64,000 bases of DNA from Peptostreptococcaceae bacterium (GTDB taxonomy: Bacteria; Bacillota; Clostridia; Peptostreptococcales; Filifactoraceae): positions 1-64,000 of the forward strand of contig JAUNKR010000002.1 in NCBI GenBank assembly GCA_030532705.1, in the 5' to 3' direction. The notes beneath the pieces were generated by a model. The model made no database searches. It saw only the letters and a program-made list of their open reading frames with translations, and had not been told where the DNA came from. Position numbers and translations under genes: made by a program. Positions 24,909 through 62,732 of this stretch are shown in pieces (position 1 is the stretch's first letter; each line of letters opens with the position of its first letter).

Positions 24909-26024
24909 TTATGCCGAAGCGGTTCGATGAGCTTGTACCAGATCGATGATCGCATCTTTTTGCCAGCCTTTGCACAACTGTGCCATCTGCTCGCGCATTT
25001 TGAGCTGTGCGTGAAAATCTCTCAGCAGCCTTTCGATCTCGTTGATCGCTTCCTCCGCCTGCTCCGGACCCTGCTCCAATACGATCCCGATCCCCTTTTC
25101 GCTGACGAGTCGTGCATTGGTGACTTCCTGTTCCAAAAAGGGCTTGAAGATCATCAGCGGCGTCTTGCTACAGATCGCCTCGAAGGTCGTGAGGCCACCC
25201 GATTTGGTGAGCAACAGATCGGCTTTTTCCATCAAATTTGCCATCTCCTCACAGTATCCCAAGACTTCGATCTGTTCAAATCGTCCCGCCAATTTTTTGT
25301 AGAGTTTTTCGTTTTTGGCAGTGATCACGGTCGTCTTTACATCTTTCAGATCGTTGAGCGCGCGATAAAAGGCGGTCGAATGAGGAAGAAGTCCGAGCCC
25401 TCCCCCCATGACCAGCAATCTTTTTTCTTTCTGATCCGGCGATTTTGTATTCCTCTTGTGAAGATGCTGCTCAAAACTTTTTGCCACCGGCATCCCGCTG
25501 ATCGTGATGATCTCTGCCGGCACTTGCATTCGGCATAAATAGTCTCTCCCCTGCTCGTCCGCGACCAAATAATGATCCGTCGCCTCATTGATCCAGCTAT
25601 CATGAGGCGAAACATCGGTGATGGCGGTGATGAGCAAAAAATCACTCTCAAGTTCCTTTTTGCAGTCGGATGCAAGCATCGATGCGACGGAATAGGTGGA
25701 GATCACGATATCTGCCTGCTCCTGCAAAAACAGTTGCGTCATCTCCTGTTTCAGTTTACGGTATATTTTTCTCAGCGTGATGCTCTGATGATTGCCTCGC
25801 GTTGCTTTTTTGTATGCCAGATTATAGAGCGGTGCTCCTTTATGTATGAAGGTCTGATAGCTTTTGTATATGAATTGCGAAAAATCACCATAGCTGTATT
25901 CAAAAATATCCACGATCTTCAGCTCGTCGCGGTCGTTCAAGATGGAATGCAGTTTTTGCTCTATTGCCTTTGCCGCCGAAAAATGCCCCATCCCAAATCG
26001 GCTTGTCAAAATCAAGATCTTCAT
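24909..26024 (-). CDS. GT-B glycosyltransferase, MGDG synthase/UgtP-like
   Basis: The 371-residue protein belongs to the GT28-type family of diacylglycerol glucosyltransferases and monogalactosyldiacylglycerol synthases, which build membrane glycolipids at the inner leaflet. The N-terminal block ILTSRFGMGHFSAAKAIEQ (about 5-23) is the acceptor-side loop; the C-terminal nucleotide-sugar domain has VMGGGLGL, GYCEEMANLM and LLTKSGGLTTFEA, then IFKPFLEQEVTNA. A second gene of the same family lies at 46516-48039. AAGGAGGAAAAG precedes the ATG. It leads an operon with the deacetylase. Confidence 0.88.
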   Translation of the reverse strand: MKILILTSRFGMGHFSAAKAIEQKLHSILNDRDELKIVDIFEYSYGDFSQFIYKSYQTFIHKGAPLYNLAYKKATRGNHQSITLRKIYRKLKQEMTQLFLQEQADIVISTYSVASMLASDCKKELESDFLLITAITDVSPHDSWINEATDHYLVADEQGRDYLCRMQVPAEIITISGMPVAKSFEQHLHKRNTKSPDQKEKRLLVMGGGLGLLPHSTAFYRALNDLKDVKTTVITAKNEKLYKKLAGRFEQIEVLGYCEEMANLMEKADLLLTKSGGLTTFEAICSKTPLMIFKPFLEQEVTNARLVSEKGIGIVLEQGPEQAEEAINEIERLLRDFHAQLKMREQMAQLCKGWQKDAIIDLVQAHRTASA

Positions 26025-46515: not shown

Positions 46516-48039
46516 TCAGCTGCGGTATCCTTCCGCAAGCTCCGTTTGTATTTTTTCAACGACCTTGAGCACTCCATCCTCATTGATCTGACGAACGATC
46601 GCTCGCATATTATTGCGCATCTTTTGTAGCCGATCCTCATCAAACAAAAGCTCTACGATATCATCGACCTCCCGATCGATCTTGCTCATCTTGGACGAAA
46701 GCACGATCCCGAGCTCTTTGTTTTTTACAAATTCGGCATTGCTCACCTCTTGCTGCAAAAAAGGTTTGAAGATCACCATCGGAAGCTCCGCATAGATCGA
46801 CTCAAAAGTCGTGATCCCTCCGGACTTGGAAAGCAGCAGATCCGATTCCAGCATCCTCTCCTTAATGTCGTCAACAAAACCTACCACATGAACATTCTCA
46901 AATCTTCCGTGAAGTTTTTTGTAGAGGCTGTGATTTTTTGCAGTGATCACCGTCGTCTCCATCCCGAGACGGCTATTGAGCGTCTCATAAAATGCCAGGC
47001 TCGTCGGCACGAGCCCCAGCCCGCCTCCCATGATCAGAAGCTTTCGCTTACGATTTTGAGTCAATGAAGAGGTCTCTCCATTTTTCTTAAATATCACAGG
47101 CGATAACTTCCCATTGCCCGACATCTTGTCAGGGATGGCCGGATTCAGATCCTCCGACGAGGTCTCCTTTTCAAGCGACGAAACTCCCGTTTCCTTATCA
47201 CCGCACTGACTGCGTGATATTTCTTCCTCATTCGTCTTTGGATCTATCTCTTTTGAACACTCCGAGACCTTCTGTTCATCGAGCGCCTCTATTTTTTCTG
47301 CACTATTTTTATATTTGAGCATCTCAAATTTTGGGTTTAGCGGCATCCCGACCACCAGGATCCGATCCGCCTCCACTCCGGCTTCGATCAGCAGCTCCTT
47401 CGTCTCCTCGACAGCGACGAGATAGTAATCGGTCTTCTCATTGATCCAAGTCGTATGCGGATAGATATCCGTGATCGCCGTGATCAACGGGATCGAATGA
47501 TGCGAAAGCTTTTTGTAATCCGAGATGATCTCCGAGCACACCGAAAAAGCAGAGATGATAAGGTCCGGCTTTTCTTTGTGCAAAAGCTTCACCGCACTGC
47601 CCAGTACATGATTGTAGATATGTTCCAGCGCTTTGCTCTCCGACGGAGGCACTTCATCCGATTTTTTGTAGATCAGATTTGCCAGCTTCGCTCCCTTATC
47701 GACGATCGATCCGTAGATCTTGTAGACCAGCGCGATATACTCCGGATATGCCAACTCAAAAAGATCGACGATCTTGACTTCTTCGATCTGATCCGTCCAG
47801 GCTTTATCCGATGATGCGATCAACTGCTCATAATCGATATCATCAAAAGTGATCTTGATCTTTTTTAGTTCTCTCCAAAAATCTTTGATCAATTTCTTTG
47901 GGCTGGGCAGGTAGTAATCCTGTAAGTCTAATGAACCTACTTTTGCATTTTGATAATGTGCTACCAGCTTCTGCTCGATCGACTTCGCCGCAGAATAGTG
48001 CCCCATCCCAAACTTGCAGGTAAGTATAAGTATCTTCAT
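46516..48039 (-). CDS. GT-B glycosyltransferase, MGDG synthase-like, with a linker insertion
   Basis: The 507-residue protein is a paralogue of the enzyme at 24909-26024. The N-terminal ILTCKFGMGHYSAAKSIEQ loop and C-terminal IMGGGLGL, GFVDDIKERM, LLSKSGGITTFES and IFKPFLQQEVSNA blocks are conserved. It is some 135 residues longer, because of a longer N-terminal lobe and a hydrophilic insertion (about residues 240-335, rich in Glu, Ser and Lys) in the linker between the two Rossmann domains. A role in membrane glycolipid synthesis is likely. GAGGAGGAACG precedes the ATG. Confidence 0.87.
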   Translation of the reverse strand: MKILILTCKFGMGHYSAAKSIEQKLVAHYQNAKVGSLDLQDYYLPSPKKLIKDFWRELKKIKITFDDIDYEQLIASSDKAWTDQIEEVKIVDLFELAYPEYIALVYKIYGSIVDKGAKLANLIYKKSDEVPPSESKALEHIYNHVLGSAVKLLHKEKPDLIISAFSVCSEIISDYKKLSHHSIPLITAITDIYPHTTWINEKTDYYLVAVEETKELLIEAGVEADRILVVGMPLNPKFEMLKYKNSAEKIEALDEQKVSECSKEIDPKTNEEEISRSQCGDKETGVSSLEKETSSEDLNPAIPDKMSGNGKLSPVIFKKNGETSSLTQNRKRKLLIMGGGLGLVPTSLAFYETLNSRLGMETTVITAKNHSLYKKLHGRFENVHVVGFVDDIKERMLESDLLLSKSGGITTFESIYAELPMVIFKPFLQQEVSNAEFVKNKELGIVLSSKMSKIDREVDDIVELLFDEDRLQKMRNNMRAIVRQINEDGVLKVVEKIQTELAEGYRS

Positions 48040-48135
48040 CGTTCCTCCTCATTCGGCAAAGTCCCCTAGGCAATTATTATAGCACAATTCATTTCATAAA
48101 TAGTAAAAATTTGGTTACAATTTTCGAAATAAATC

Positions 48136-48194
48136 TTGACAAAATCTCTTAGTAATATTATGATAATAACAAGATAGATAGTATCAAGTTGATA
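48136..48194 (+). promoter_or_regulatory. promoter and palindrome ahead of the NrtR-like gene
   Basis: TTGACA (48136-48141), 17 bases, TATGAT (48159-48164) make a good promoter. Just downstream TATCAAGTTGATA (48182-48194) is a perfect 13-base palindrome in the position of a repressor site, plausibly for the NrtR-like product itself. Confidence 0.7.
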
Positions 48195-48227
48195 ATAATA
48201 AAAGCAATTTCAAAAAGGAGTCGTCCC

Positions 48228-49103
48228 ATGAATGCAAAACAACAGGAACAGGAGTTTTTGAAAAACTACGATACCCACGATTATGAAAAACCATCCGTCA
48301 CCGTCGATGTCGTCGCCTTCACCATCGGCGAAAAGGATGAAACGAACTACCGAAAGAACACGAACAAGCGGCTTAAAGTCCTGCTGATGAAACGAACGGA
48401 CTTTCCTTTCAAAGAGATGTGGGCATTGCCCGGCGGATTTGTCGACATCCGCGAGAGCCTCGAAGATGCGACCGCTCGAGTTTTGCTGAACAAGACGGAT
48501 CTGAGCAAGGCCTATCTAGAACAACTCTATACCTGGGGCGAGATCGACCGGGACCCGAGACATCGGATCTTCAGCATCTCTTACCTTACATTGATCCAAG
48601 AAGAAAATCTCCGGGCCAAGAGCGCGGACAAAACTTATGCCTGGTTCGATCTTACGATGGATCGTATCTTCGAAAAAACCGAAACGATCGCCGGCGGGGA
48701 AAGGTGGACCACGATCGAGCGGCTCGGATTTGAAGGCGAAAAAGAAAATTTTGCCGTCACGATCGAGCTGACAAGGACGGTACAGGACCGATTGCTGAGC
48801 CAATCCTATCGAGTCCTTGAAAATGATCACATCGCCTTTGATCATCCCAAGATCATCGCCTATGCGCTCAAGAGACTTCGGGAAAAAATAGAGTACACAC
48901 CGATCGCATTTTCGCTGATGCCTGCGCGATTCACGCTCACCCAGCTTCAGCAGGTCTATGAAACGATATTGAACAGAGAATTGCTCAAAGCCAATTTCCG
49001 ACGAAAGATCGCGAGCATGGTGATCGAGACGGAGGAATATAAAAAAGATGCGGGTCATCGACCTTCTAAACTGTTTAAGTTCAACAGCAAATTCGATCTG
49101 TAG
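48228..49103 (+). CDS. NrtR-like regulator: Nudix domain plus winged helix
   Basis: The 291-residue protein has a Nudix fold (about 20-180) and a C-terminal winged helix-turn-helix (about 225-275, ARFTLTQLQQVYETILNREL), the layout of the NrtR family that represses NAD genes and senses ADP-ribose-type ligands. The Nudix box at 69-91 is degraded: GGFVDIRESLEDA is followed by ARVLLNK instead of the REUXEE core, so hydrolysis is unlikely. The ATG at 48228 is chosen for the AAAAAGGAG before it. It leads a three-gene set with an SPFH protein and a NAD kinase-like protein. Confidence 0.82.
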   Translation: MNAKQQEQEFLKNYDTHDYEKPSVTVDVVAFTIGEKDETNYRKNTNKRLKVLLMKRTDFPFKEMWALPGGFVDIRESLEDATARVLLNKTDLSKAYLEQLYTWGEIDRDPRHRIFSISYLTLIQEENLRAKSADKTYAWFDLTMDRIFEKTETIAGGERWTTIERLGFEGEKENFAVTIELTRTVQDRLLSQSYRVLENDHIAFDHPKIIAYALKRLREKIEYTPIAFSLMPARFTLTQLQQVYETILNRELLKANFRRKIASMVIETEEYKKDAGHRPSKLFKFNSKFDL

Positions 49104-49121
49104 CGAAGAAAGGAGATCACA

Positions 49122-50129
49122 ATGTTTGGACTACGATTTATGAAATTTGAACCGAATAACCATGTTATCGTCTATAAGAACGGAAAGATCACAAAGCAGG
49201 GCAAGGGACTCAGCTTCTGGTACTACTCCCCGACCGGAAGTATCCAAAAGATCCCGACCGATGTGATGGACGAGCCTTTTATGTTCGAGGAGATCACTTT
49301 GGACTACCAGCCGATCACGATCCAAGGCAATGTCAGCTACAAGATCGAGGATCCGCTCAAGACCTCCGGCTATATCAACTTTACGCTAAGGCCCAACGGA
49401 AGAAGTTATCTCGATACTCCGCAGGAGAATCTTTCCAAAAAGATCCACAGCGCCGTCATCGTGTCCGCCAACAAAACGATCAGCCGATTGGATCTTAAGC
49501 AGACCATCACCTCCAGAGAACAGATCAAAGAGAGCATCCTCTCAGACCTTAGGTCCAATGAGGAGCTAAATCAGATCGGCGTCGACATCGTCAACCTCTC
49601 CATCCTCGGCATCAAGCCGAATGTTGAAACTGCAAGAGCATTGGAAGCACAGACCCGAGAGCAGATCCTGAAAGATGCCGACGATGCGATCTATGTGCGC
49701 CGCAATTCATCCATCGAGCAGGAGCGGATCGTCAAAGAAAATGAATACAATACCGAGATCGCGATCGAAGAAAAGAAACGAGAGATCGAGGAAAGAAAGC
49801 TGAAAGCAAAACAAGGCCTTCAAAGACAGCAGAACCTATTAAAAGAAGAACAGATCCATGCCGACATCCAGCTCGAAGAGAAGAAAAAAGAATGGATCAG
49901 CCTATCGTCCGAAAATACCAAGATCCAGGCGGATGCAAAAGCATATGAACTATCCGCTGCGATGAAGGCACTGGAAGATACCGACCAAGAGACCATTCAA
50001 GCGCTGGCAAGCGTCGGCATGGATTCGAACCGACTGATCGCCGCCGCATTCCAAGAGCTTGCGAAAAAAGCGGGATCCATCGGACAGCTCAATGTCTCTC
50101 CGGATCTTTTGAGAGAGCTGCTCCAATGA
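49122..50129 (+). CDS. SPFH/band 7 domain protein without a membrane anchor
   Basis: The 335-residue protein carries an SPFH domain (about 10-180, with IVYKNGKITKQGKGLSFWYY and NVSYKIEDPLK) followed by a long coiled coil (about 185-280, rich in Glu, Lys and Gln) and a short C-terminal domain. No transmembrane helix is evident. SPFH proteins form ring or cage assemblies on membranes; this subgroup has no defined role. It lies 18 bases after the NrtR-like gene with AAAGGAGATCACA ahead, so they are one transcript. Confidence 0.85.
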   Translation: MFGLRFMKFEPNNHVIVYKNGKITKQGKGLSFWYYSPTGSIQKIPTDVMDEPFMFEEITLDYQPITIQGNVSYKIEDPLKTSGYINFTLRPNGRSYLDTPQENLSKKIHSAVIVSANKTISRLDLKQTITSREQIKESILSDLRSNEELNQIGVDIVNLSILGIKPNVETARALEAQTREQILKDADDAIYVRRNSSIEQERIVKENEYNTEIAIEEKKREIEERKLKAKQGLQRQQNLLKEEQIHADIQLEEKKKEWISLSSENTKIQADAKAYELSAAMKALEDTDQETIQALASVGMDSNRLIAAAFQELAKKAGSIGQLNVSPDLLRELLQ

Positions 50130-50263
50130 TACGCTTCAACCAACGCGGATCTTAACGAACGAACGGATCAAAAGATATCCGCTCCAGGTTCACATCCTCC
50201 AGAAATGCTTTGATCCACTTGTTTTGCAACCACCATTTGAGAAAACAAAAAGAAAGGGATCCT

Positions 50264-51211
50264 ATGATCGAGAATACCAAATTTGTCGTTATCACCAGAA
50301 AGACCATGCTTGAAGAATTGGTCCACAAATACAATACCATCGAGCAAGCGAGATTTTATATCACCCATTTGGGCGAAGATTTCGAGAGCTATCAGATCCA
50401 GCACAGACAATACTACCATTCCCTCGATGAAACGATCCGGGCACTCCACGACTTCGGGAAGGTCCAGACCATCGACCGCAGATATCTTCCGAATTTTATC
50501 TTCGGAGAAAAGGATATCGTCGTGGTCGTCGGTCAGGACGGGCTGGTCGCAAATACGATGAAATATCTTCAAAACCAAAGGATCATTGCCGTCAACCCCG
50601 ACAAAAAACGCTGGGACGGGATCCTGCTGCCCTTCGATCCGATCTCCGTCCGAAAGATCGTGCCCGAAGTGATCAAAGACAAAAGATCCGTCAAAGAGAT
50701 CACGATGGCAAAGGCGACTCTCACCGACGGACAGTCCCTCTATGCTGTGAACGATCTTTTCATCGGACCAAAGAGCCACACTTCCGCAAGATATAAACTC
50801 CAATTCGGCGATCTGTCCGAGGAACAATCCTCCAGCGGTATCATCGTATCCACCGGACTGGGCAGCACCGGCTGGCTCAAAAGCATCATGTGCGGTGCGC
50901 TCGGGATCGCCAAAAAAGTCGAGAACTTCCATGGCAGCGCACTCGAACAAAACGACTTTGTGATCCCCAACCTGAGCTGGAACACCAAAAGCCTGATCTT
51001 CTCCGTCCGCGAACCTTTCCCGAGCAAAAGCTCCAAGGCGGACTGCGTGTTCGGCGAGATCAAAGAAGACAAACCGCTGATCCTCATCTCCAAGATGCCC
51101 GATCATGGCGTCATATTCAGCGACGGGATCGAAAGTGACTTTTTGATCTTTTCATCCGGCATGCAAGCCGAGATCACCATCGCCGAGCGAAAAGGCCATC
51201 TGGTCGTATAG
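50264..51211 (+). CDS. NAD kinase-like protein
   Basis: The 315-residue protein resembles the NAD kinase fold. It has GQDG at residues 90-93 (in place of GGDG), ND at 163-164 (the NE/ND nucleotide-binding pair) and STGLGSTGW at 196-204, corresponding to the STPTGST loop. The variations suggest a divergent subfamily, perhaps binding NAD or a related nucleotide. The ATG at 50264 follows AAAGGGATCCT. It ends the NrtR-like/SPFH set, 134 bases after the SPFH gene, and is followed by a large terminator. Confidence 0.8.
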   Translation: MIENTKFVVITRKTMLEELVHKYNTIEQARFYITHLGEDFESYQIQHRQYYHSLDETIRALHDFGKVQTIDRRYLPNFIFGEKDIVVVVGQDGLVANTMKYLQNQRIIAVNPDKKRWDGILLPFDPISVRKIVPEVIKDKRSVKEITMAKATLTDGQSLYAVNDLFIGPKSHTSARYKLQFGDLSEEQSSSGIIVSTGLGSTGWLKSIMCGALGIAKKVENFHGSALEQNDFVIPNLSWNTKSLIFSVREPFPSKSSKADCVFGEIKEDKPLILISKMPDHGVIFSDGIESDFLIFSSGMQAEITIAERKGHLVV

Positions 51212-51213
51212 AT

Positions 51214-51314
51214 AGAAAGAAAGAAAGAAAGAAAGAGCATACTGCCCCTATCACATCCGATCGGATCATGACCCAATGATCCGCAGACGATAAAGTTCAG
51301 TATGCTCTTTTTGC
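51214..51314 (+). terminator. GAAA repeat and long two-tier terminator stem-loop
   Basis: A short (GAAA)n tract (51214-51235) leads into AAAGAGCATACTG (51232-51244), which pairs perfectly with CAGTATGCTCTTT (51298-51310), followed by TTTTG. An inner GGATCAT/ATGATCC hairpin is nested inside. Confidence 0.85.
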
Positions 51315-51385
51315 ATCTTGATCAATTCAAAATACCGACGAACAAAACAAAATTATTTTTTACATAAATTTTATTTGATCGAGTT

Positions 51386-61358: not shown

Positions 61359-62732
61359 ATGGATCTTATGTATATCCTCGGCGCAGTTGCCGTGATCATC
61401 GTTTTATTGATCGTTACCATCCCATTGTGGTACATCAAATCGCCACCGGATAAAGCTTTCATCATTTCCGGACTTGGAAAAAGGAAGGTCATCATCGGAA
61501 AATCCGGTGTCAAGATCCCTTTCTTGCAACGTCTGGACAAATTGAGTCTCGAAATGGTCTCTGTCGATGTCAAAACGGACTCCTTCGTTCCGACAAATGA
61601 CTATATCAACGTAAAGATCGACGGTGCTGTCAAGATCAAGATCGGGGCGGATCAAGAGCTGATCGAGTTGGCGGCACAAAACTTCTTGAACCGTGCACCC
61701 GATTATATCATCGCGCAGGTGAAAGACGTTCTGGAAGGTAATACCCGGGAGATCATCGGTAGTATGCCTTTTGAGAGCATCGTACAGGATCGTAAATCCT
61801 TCGTCGAAAAGGTTCAGGAGAACGCGGTGCCGGATCTTCGCAAAATGGGTCTTGAGATCATCTCCTTTAATGTGCAATCCGTGATCGATGAAAATAACAT
61901 CATCGTGGACCTCGGTATCGACAACGTATCGCAGATCCGTAAAAAAGCACAGATCGCAAAAGCGCAAGCAGATCGTGACGTTGCGATAGCAACCTCCGAA
62001 GCGAAAAAGATGGCTAATGATGCGGAAGTTTTGGCCGAGACCGAGATCGCATCCAAACAAAAAGAGCTTGCCGTTCGTGTCGCAGAATTTAAGATCGAAC
62101 AAGATACGAAGCAAGCAGAAGCGGATGCGGCATACAAGATCCAAATGGAAGAGCGCCGTGCGATCATCGAGGAAAAAACCGCTCAGGCAAACCTTGTAAA
62201 AACCGAAAAAGAAGTTCTTGTTCGCCAAAAAGTTCTACAAGCAGAGATCGAAAAACAGGCAGAAGCGGATAAGTTCAAAGAGATGCAGATGGCGGATGCG
62301 GAATTGTACCGCAGACAACAGGAAGCACAGGCAAGACTGGTAGAAAAACAGCGTGAAGCGCAAGGGATCTTGGAGATCGGTAAAGCGGAGGCGGAAGCGA
62401 TCCGTGCAAAAGCGCTCGCAGAAGCGGAAGGTATCAACGCAAAAGCGGAAGCGATGAAAAAATATGGCGAAGCTGCGATCCTTGAAATGTACTTCGACAA
62501 ATTGCCGGACATCGCAAAAAGTGTTGCCGAGCCGCTCACCAATGTGGACAAGATCACGATGTATGGCGATGCACAAAATGCTAAGATCGTCGGCGATATC
62601 GTCAAGGCGACCACTCAGATCACGGATGGTCTGACCGAAGGAATGGGCATCGATATCAAATCCTTCGTCCAAAGCCTGATGACGAAAAAAACAACGCCGA
62701 CCGTCGAAGTTCCACCGACCACACAAGAATAG
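61359..62732 (+). CDS. flotillin-like SPFH membrane scaffold protein
   Basis: The 457-residue protein has an N-terminal membrane helix (about 4-24), an SPFH domain (about 28-200), a long Ala/Glu-rich coiled coil (about 205-390) with EAEAIRAKALAEAEG repeats, and a Thr/Pro-rich tail. This is the flotillin (FloT/YuaG) layout; flotillins organise membrane microdomains. The NfeD partner often next to floT is absent. TTAGGAGG precedes the ATG and TATAAT lies at 61318-61323. Confidence 0.92.
   Translation: MDLMYILGAVAVIIVLLIVTIPLWYIKSPPDKAFIISGLGKRKVIIGKSGVKIPFLQRLDKLSLEMVSVDVKTDSFVPTNDYINVKIDGAVKIKIGADQELIELAAQNFLNRAPDYIIAQVKDVLEGNTREIIGSMPFESIVQDRKSFVEKVQENAVPDLRKMGLEIISFNVQSVIDENNIIVDLGIDNVSQIRKKAQIAKAQADRDVAIATSEAKKMANDAEVLAETEIASKQKELAVRVAEFKIEQDTKQAEADAAYKIQMEERRAIIEEKTAQANLVKTEKEVLVRQKVLQAEIEKQAEADKFKEMQMADAELYRRQQEAQARLVEKQREAQGILEIGKAEAEAIRAKALAEAEGINAKAEAMKKYGEAAILEMYFDKLPDIAKSVAEPLTNVDKITMYGDAQNAKIVGDIVKATTQITDGLTEGMGIDIKSFVQSLMTKKTTPTVEVPPTTQE

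Follow-up and report, generated by a model that had tools for sequence, protein, structure and literature searches.

NAD synthesis genes are what NrtR regulons are known for, whereas in the Peptostreptococcaceae genome considered here an NrtR-type gene adjoins an unstudied pair, currently annotated as an 'SPFH protein' and a 'sugar kinase'. What might such a three-gene cassette do, and is it concerned with NAD-type nucleotides, as was originally predicted? The cassette lies in the window, a stretch of 64,000 nucleotides (contig JAUNKR010000002.1, positions 1 to 64,000) from a 2.08-Mb draft genome that is about 72% complete. The trio is not described in the open-access papers searched, although the original NrtR comparative-genomics paper was outside that scope and may mention it. 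A clostridial pair, CLAU_0470/CLAU_0469, has been mentioned merely as the neighbours of another gene (PMC12335938). We suggest, at what we consider about an even chance for the reading as a whole, that the cassette encodes an NrtR-controlled, SPFH-scaffolded enzyme related to human NADK2, whose substrate would be NAD(H) or a nucleotide akin to it.

Organization of the unit

The three genes are on the same strand and form one transcription unit. The features of the locus are as follows.

48132 to 51373, no strand: stretch missing from the congener G001, in which the flanking genes are adjacent
48136 to 48164, forward strand: promoter, -35 TTGACA, 17-bp spacer, -10 TATGAT
48162 to 48200, forward strand: probable NrtR operator with GATAATAACA-type repeats and the palindrome TATCAAGTTGATA, recurring upstream of Bacillota loci
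48228 to 49103, forward strand: NrtR-type transcriptional repressor, with a degraded Nudix sensor and an NrtR winged helix (Pfam, PDB homologues)
49122 to 50129, forward strand: soluble SPFH (Band 7) protein, with an N-terminal SPFH domain and a 117-residue helix (Pfam, AlphaFold2, hydropathy)
50264 to 51211, forward strand: NADK2-like protein with GQDG, ND, TG(L/M)GSTGW and VREP motifs (profile, AlphaFold2)
51230 to 51312, forward strand: long-stem intrinsic terminator, probably common to the convergent xth gene (fold, stem ends in the congener)

The original prediction was of a co-directional trio behind a single good promoter and ending at one large terminator, and this layout is borne out: all open reading frames were located, the promoter agrees with the consensus at 11 of 12 bases, and the region that holds the terminator (51225-51316) has a folding energy of -33.4 kcal/mol (z -6.9). 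The terminator was missed by a pattern scan because of its long loop. The second and third genes are separated by 134 bp here, and in most relatives they overlap or almost touch. Upstream of the cassette is a divergent MGDG-synthase-like gene, and downstream is the convergent xth. The window holds two MGDG-synthase-like glycosyltransferase paralogues (24912-26024 and 46516-48039), of which the second, on the cassette side, is about 135 residues longer. A separate flotillin-type SPFH gene (Band_7 plus Flot) is found at 61359-62732, 10 kb downstream of the cassette.

The first protein matches the Pfam models NrtR_WHD (79 bits, cut-off 27) and NUDIX (39 bits, cut-off 21), and has solved homologues (PDB 5bs6, 3gz5 and 7q91). 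In place of REUXEE, the Nudix signature as defined in PMC4666351, it carries GGFVDIRESLEDATARVLLNKTDL. This degraded box, together with the winged helix, agrees with the proposal that the protein is a sensor rather than a hydrolase. Like the NrtR regulators of Shewanella (SoNrtR) and Streptococcus (NF050029, PF21906), it combines a Nudix-like sensor with a winged helix, and it shares with them the degraded signature, operators at promoters and NAD-salvage neighbours. It differs in that its adjacent target is the SPFH/NADK2-like pair, itself no NAD biosynthesis operon, and it scores under the NF050029 equivalog cut-off. The NrtR proteins studied so far leave DNA upon ADP-ribose (PMC4666351, PMC12735969), and sugars, not NAD metabolites, are the effectors of some members of the family (PMC4666351).

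The second protein matches Band_7 (64 bits, cut-off 23.6), with the SPFH domain at its very start and no hydrophobic N-terminal segment. As proposed originally, there is no transmembrane segment: the highest 19-residue hydropathy is 0.92, and the AlphaFold2 model consists of a beta-rich N-terminus followed by a single helix (residues 168-284; 117 residues, 40% charged). Like stomatins and flotillins, the protein has a Band 7 domain with a long helix behind it, but unlike these it lacks a membrane segment and belongs to a conserved subfamily of its own that is linked to the NADK2-like gene. Solved stomatins are just marginally similar to it (E 0.01). By analogy with SPFH proteins in general, it would probably form a ring or cage oligomer via the long helix.

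Recurrence and distribution of the gene pair

Recurrence was assessed in the best 80 loci found for the NAD-kinase-like protein in a genome scan. An SPFH homologue precedes the NADK2-like gene in 77 of these 80 loci, and NrtR adjoins the pair in 43. The module therefore recurs across genomes, and the lack of recurrence named as a refutation of the original prediction does not hold. Where nrtR adjoins the pair, it shares the strand of the pair in Bacillota and a number of other groups and is divergent in many Pseudomonadota. The SPFH and NADK2-like frames overlap or are at most 20 bp apart in 43 of the 51 loci measured, and the divergence of the two proteins is correlated (Mantel r 0.88; 0 of 2000 permutations), a correlation in which shared species history is still included. 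The three exceptions to the pairing are a contig edge and two Thiomargarita loci (L059 and L063), where the NADK2-like gene is present with no SPFH gene nearby.

Two further arrangements were observed. In some clostridial loci a protein of 690-824 amino acids, forming one cluster, is encoded directly 5' of the SPFH gene (L020:4484-6958, L028:4884-6956, L032:4880-6955), and both members scanned have a C-terminal methyltransferase domain. In Bradyrhizobium, a partial second NADK2-like copy is located about 5.1 kb (L091) or 4.9 kb (L089) downstream of the main gene.

Comparison with a congener (G001) shows the limits of the unit. The genes that flank the cassette in the window are adjacent there, with 287 bp between them, and in the alignment the shared flanks end at window position 48131 and resume at 51374. 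Missing from the congener are the promoter, the operator and all three genes, and the boundaries lie just outside the promoter and the terminator. The gap in the congener carries a terminator after xth with similar stem ends. Given that the flanks are adjacent without the cassette, the unit must have been gained or lost whole. In a second congener (95% complete) no close relative of the NADK2-like gene was found, the one remote match being a canonical NAD kinase.

The distribution of the family is patchy, with the NADK2-like gene in 5 of the 391 genomes sampled from the class. Among named organisms, the closest relatives of the third gene come from the oral taxon Clostridiales bacterium COT-073 and from a Filifactor alocis bin. 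The family spans at least eight phyla (Bacillota, Pseudomonadota, Thermodesulfobacteriota, Verrucomicrobiota, Lentisphaerota, Chloroflexota, Chlorobiota and Myxococcota). More remote members come from Streptomyces, Kitasatospora and Roseomonas plasmids, and the cassette is also found on large plasmids. Queries with the Providencia genes gave no match in E. coli genomes. A tree of the bacterial family only is likewise patchy against phylum, although more than one change of label is no proof of transfer.

The NADK2-like protein

The original prediction drew attention to variant motifs (GQDG, STGLGSTGW) in the third protein. It is indeed divergent from NAD kinases, with no Pfam match at E 0.1 and at most 26 bits against the NCBIfam NAD kinase models, the cut-offs of which are above 200. 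However, the motifs are family-wide conserved signatures rather than a local oddity: the counterpart of GGDG is GQDG in 57 of 59 family sequences and GRDG in the other two. The AlphaFold2 model of the protein has a pLDDT of 89.7.

A profile of the 59 sequences gives human NADK2 69 bits and the other NAD kinases in the PDB at most 23, and a canonical NAD kinase profile gives canonical enzymes 155-301 bits and NADK2 50 bits. By these scores the family is closer to NADK2 than to other solved NAD kinases. With human mitochondrial NADK2 (C5orf33; PDB 7r4j, 7n29) it shares VN(P/T)DPxRxxGxL, NxxFIG, SSG, TGxGSxxW and REP, as well as Trp204 in place of the canonical Tyr; position 202 is Thr or Ser. 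Unlike NADK2 it has GQDG instead of GGDG, followed by Leu instead of Thr, and it is encoded in a bacterial operon with an SPFH gene. Similarity to canonical NAD kinases (PF01513; E. coli NadK, Listeria NadK1) is remote; the catalytic Asp and Asn are common to both, but the GGDG motif and the Pfam match that mark those enzymes are missing here. In a published NADK phylogeny the eukaryotic clades have no consistent prokaryotic sister (PMC6675116), and we consider the GQDG family a candidate relative of the eukaryotic mitochondrial NADK clade.

Besides the cassette protein, the source genome of the window encodes a canonical NAD kinase, and so do 25 of 27 cassette genomes (the other two are metagenome bins). 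We rejected the identification of the third protein as the housekeeping NAD kinase, given that the canonical gene sits elsewhere.

In NAD kinases an Asp activates the acceptor hydroxyl, and its counterpart here, Asp92, is invariant across the family, as are Asn163 and several residues of region II; position 164 (Asp in the window) is acidic throughout. The positions matching Asp92, Asn163, Asp164 and Thr202 have been named as vital (PMC8553519). Given that the second Gly of GGDG is replaced, the protein may bind a nucleotide without phosphorylating it. The strongest rival to an active enzyme is thus a catalytically dead NAD(P) sensor, in which the bound nucleotide would alter the SPFH oligomer as a structural switch. 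We know of no active NAD kinase in which this Gly is replaced, and the near-obligate pairing with a scaffold protein would suit such a switch. The GGDG motif is moreover thought to join in catalysis (PMC8553519), with the second Gly within it. On the other hand, a dead protein sits less easily with the invariance of the acceptor-activating Asp, of Asn163 and of the region-II residues, and the residue that follows GGDG, also changed here, varies naturally among NAD kinases, GGDGL included (PMC8553519). We regard the sensor as possible but rather doubtful.

Shared operators, NAD-related neighbours and possible function

The 13-bp palindrome TATCAAGTTGATA noted at the promoter in the original prediction lies at 48182-48194, just downstream of the -10 hexamer. 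Across the window, 0.32 such matches, with one mismatch allowed, would be expected at random. The palindrome as the entire operator was replaced by a longer conserved repeated element that contains it. An element near GATAATAACA-N4-GATAATAACA is found upstream of the first gene in 20 Bacillota loci, the window included, often directly after the -10 hexamer. In a comparison over the 19 loci that have it no more than 300 bp away, 100 shuffles produced nothing equally good. The sole exact match to the pattern in the source genome is in the window operon.

The element is present even where nrtR lies far from the pair. All eight element-bearing genomes tested that lack an adjacent nrtR have one elsewhere, and seven of these eight distant nrtR genes carry the element (at most two mismatches) a short way upstream. 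It is missing from the two Bacillota genomes that have no nrtR (L021 and L081; Fisher exact about 0.02 against the eight genomes). At the level of sequence, a probable operator is thus common to the predicted NrtR and target promoters. Pseudomonadota have palindromes of their own, for instance ACTTAGTTG...CAACTAAGT, in the intergenic region between nrtR and the SPFH gene. NrtR is absent altogether from the genomes of L021, L081, L029, L035, L043, L048 and L056, so the regulator is not obligatory.

The gene neighbourhood points in the same direction as the regulator. At least one of nicotinamidase (PncA), nicotinate phosphoribosyltransferase (PncB), PnuC, NadR, a macrodomain protein, ADP-ribosylglycohydrolase and KptA is encoded at 15 of the best 80 loci, and six of these kinds are clustered together at one of the loci (L088). 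None of them occurs in 20 control stretches (400 kb, from cassette-bearing genomes), a comparison to which no formal probability can be attached, given the kinship among the loci. The distant nrtR genes of Saccharibacillus and Paenibacillus have NADAR-type and TIGR02452 genes alongside, and that of Saccharibacillus also has a DarG-like macro gene. The presence of salvage and reversal genes beside nrtR, with a common operator, ties the cassette to NAD salvage and the reversal of ADP-ribosylation, although at many loci both an adjacent nrtR and NAD genes are missing. The predicted link to NAD-type nucleotides is therefore backed by both neighbours and operators. In Paenibacillus and Saccharibacillus, reversal genes that recall the DarT-NADAR and bacterial PARG systems adjoin the same-operator nrtR, but unlike in those systems no ADP-ribosyltransferase toxin was noticed in or around the cassette in an unsystematic look.

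From these patterns we infer a ligand for NrtR, its binding to the operator, the SPFH oligomer, a complex, catalysis and a substrate. At rest, NrtR would occupy the repeated operator that spans the start of the promoter and keep the unit repressed. Upon NAD consumption, the dead Nudix pocket would take up ADP-ribose or a related nucleotide and NrtR would be released, so that the soluble SPFH protein and the NADK2-related NAD kinase paralogue would be made together, most likely as one complex. The NADK2-like protein would then bind, and probably phosphorylate, NAD(H) or an ADP-ribose-type nucleotide. The outcome could be a rebalancing of NAD(H) and NADP(H), with co-regulated salvage and ADP-ribose-removal enzymes refilling the pool. 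A more specific form of this scenario seems to us unlikely as a whole: an SPFH ring or cage, induced by ADP-ribose, would house the NADK2-like protein, NAD(H) would be converted or protected within it during depletion, and the protein would be the missing prokaryotic kin of the mitochondrial NADK clade.

The neighbours could also be read as pointing to a nucleotide-salvage kinase that would use, in place of NAD, free ADP-ribose or a different compound set free when ADP-ribosylation is reversed, and so detoxify or recycle it. Macro proteins, ADP-ribosylglycohydrolase and KptA release ADP-ribose or related compounds, as do the NADAR and TIGR02452 proteins linked to the cassette by the shared regulator, but PncA, PncB, PnuC and NadR are frequent neighbours as well, and we consider such a kinase quite improbable.

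The original prediction left open whether the module is metabolic or defensive, and it is the metabolic half that finds support in the NAD and ADP-ribose context. A defence role against phages or toxins, exerted through NAD or ADP-ribose, would account for the patchy distribution, the gain or loss of the whole unit, the occurrence on large plasmids and the ADP-ribose-repair neighbours, which could serve against toxins too, but we think it very unlikely, given that the regulator is a metabolic sensor, the neighbours are metabolic or ADP-ribose-repair genes, and PADLOC 2.0 gives weak partial matches only (the third protein matches PbeC at 17.7 bits). A phage or prophage cassette was rejected, as neither the phage records searched nor a single scan of viral contigs yielded a relative, and a known defence system was rejected for lack of a relevant PADLOC match. 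Overall, the cassette has the look of an as yet uncharacterised module for NAD housekeeping and not of an established defence system. The favoured reading, of an NrtR-controlled and SPFH-scaffolded NADK2-like enzyme, would make the pair a direct bacterial entry point to the work of SPFH scaffolds with nucleotide enzymes, as well as a candidate for NADK2 kinship that can be put to the test, and relabelling the 'sugar kinase' would aid annotation.

A minor observation concerns the plasmids. In Moraxella, Psychrobacter and an uncultured bacterium, tet(H)-tetR(H) directly adjoins the 3' end of the cassette on plasmids (L097:4103-8850, L101:4387-7850, L103:5001-7355). The adjoining cassette is whole or truncated, and truncated gene copies occur on further plasmids, some from Pasteurellaceae, as if tet(H) had been mobilised along with a cassette flank.
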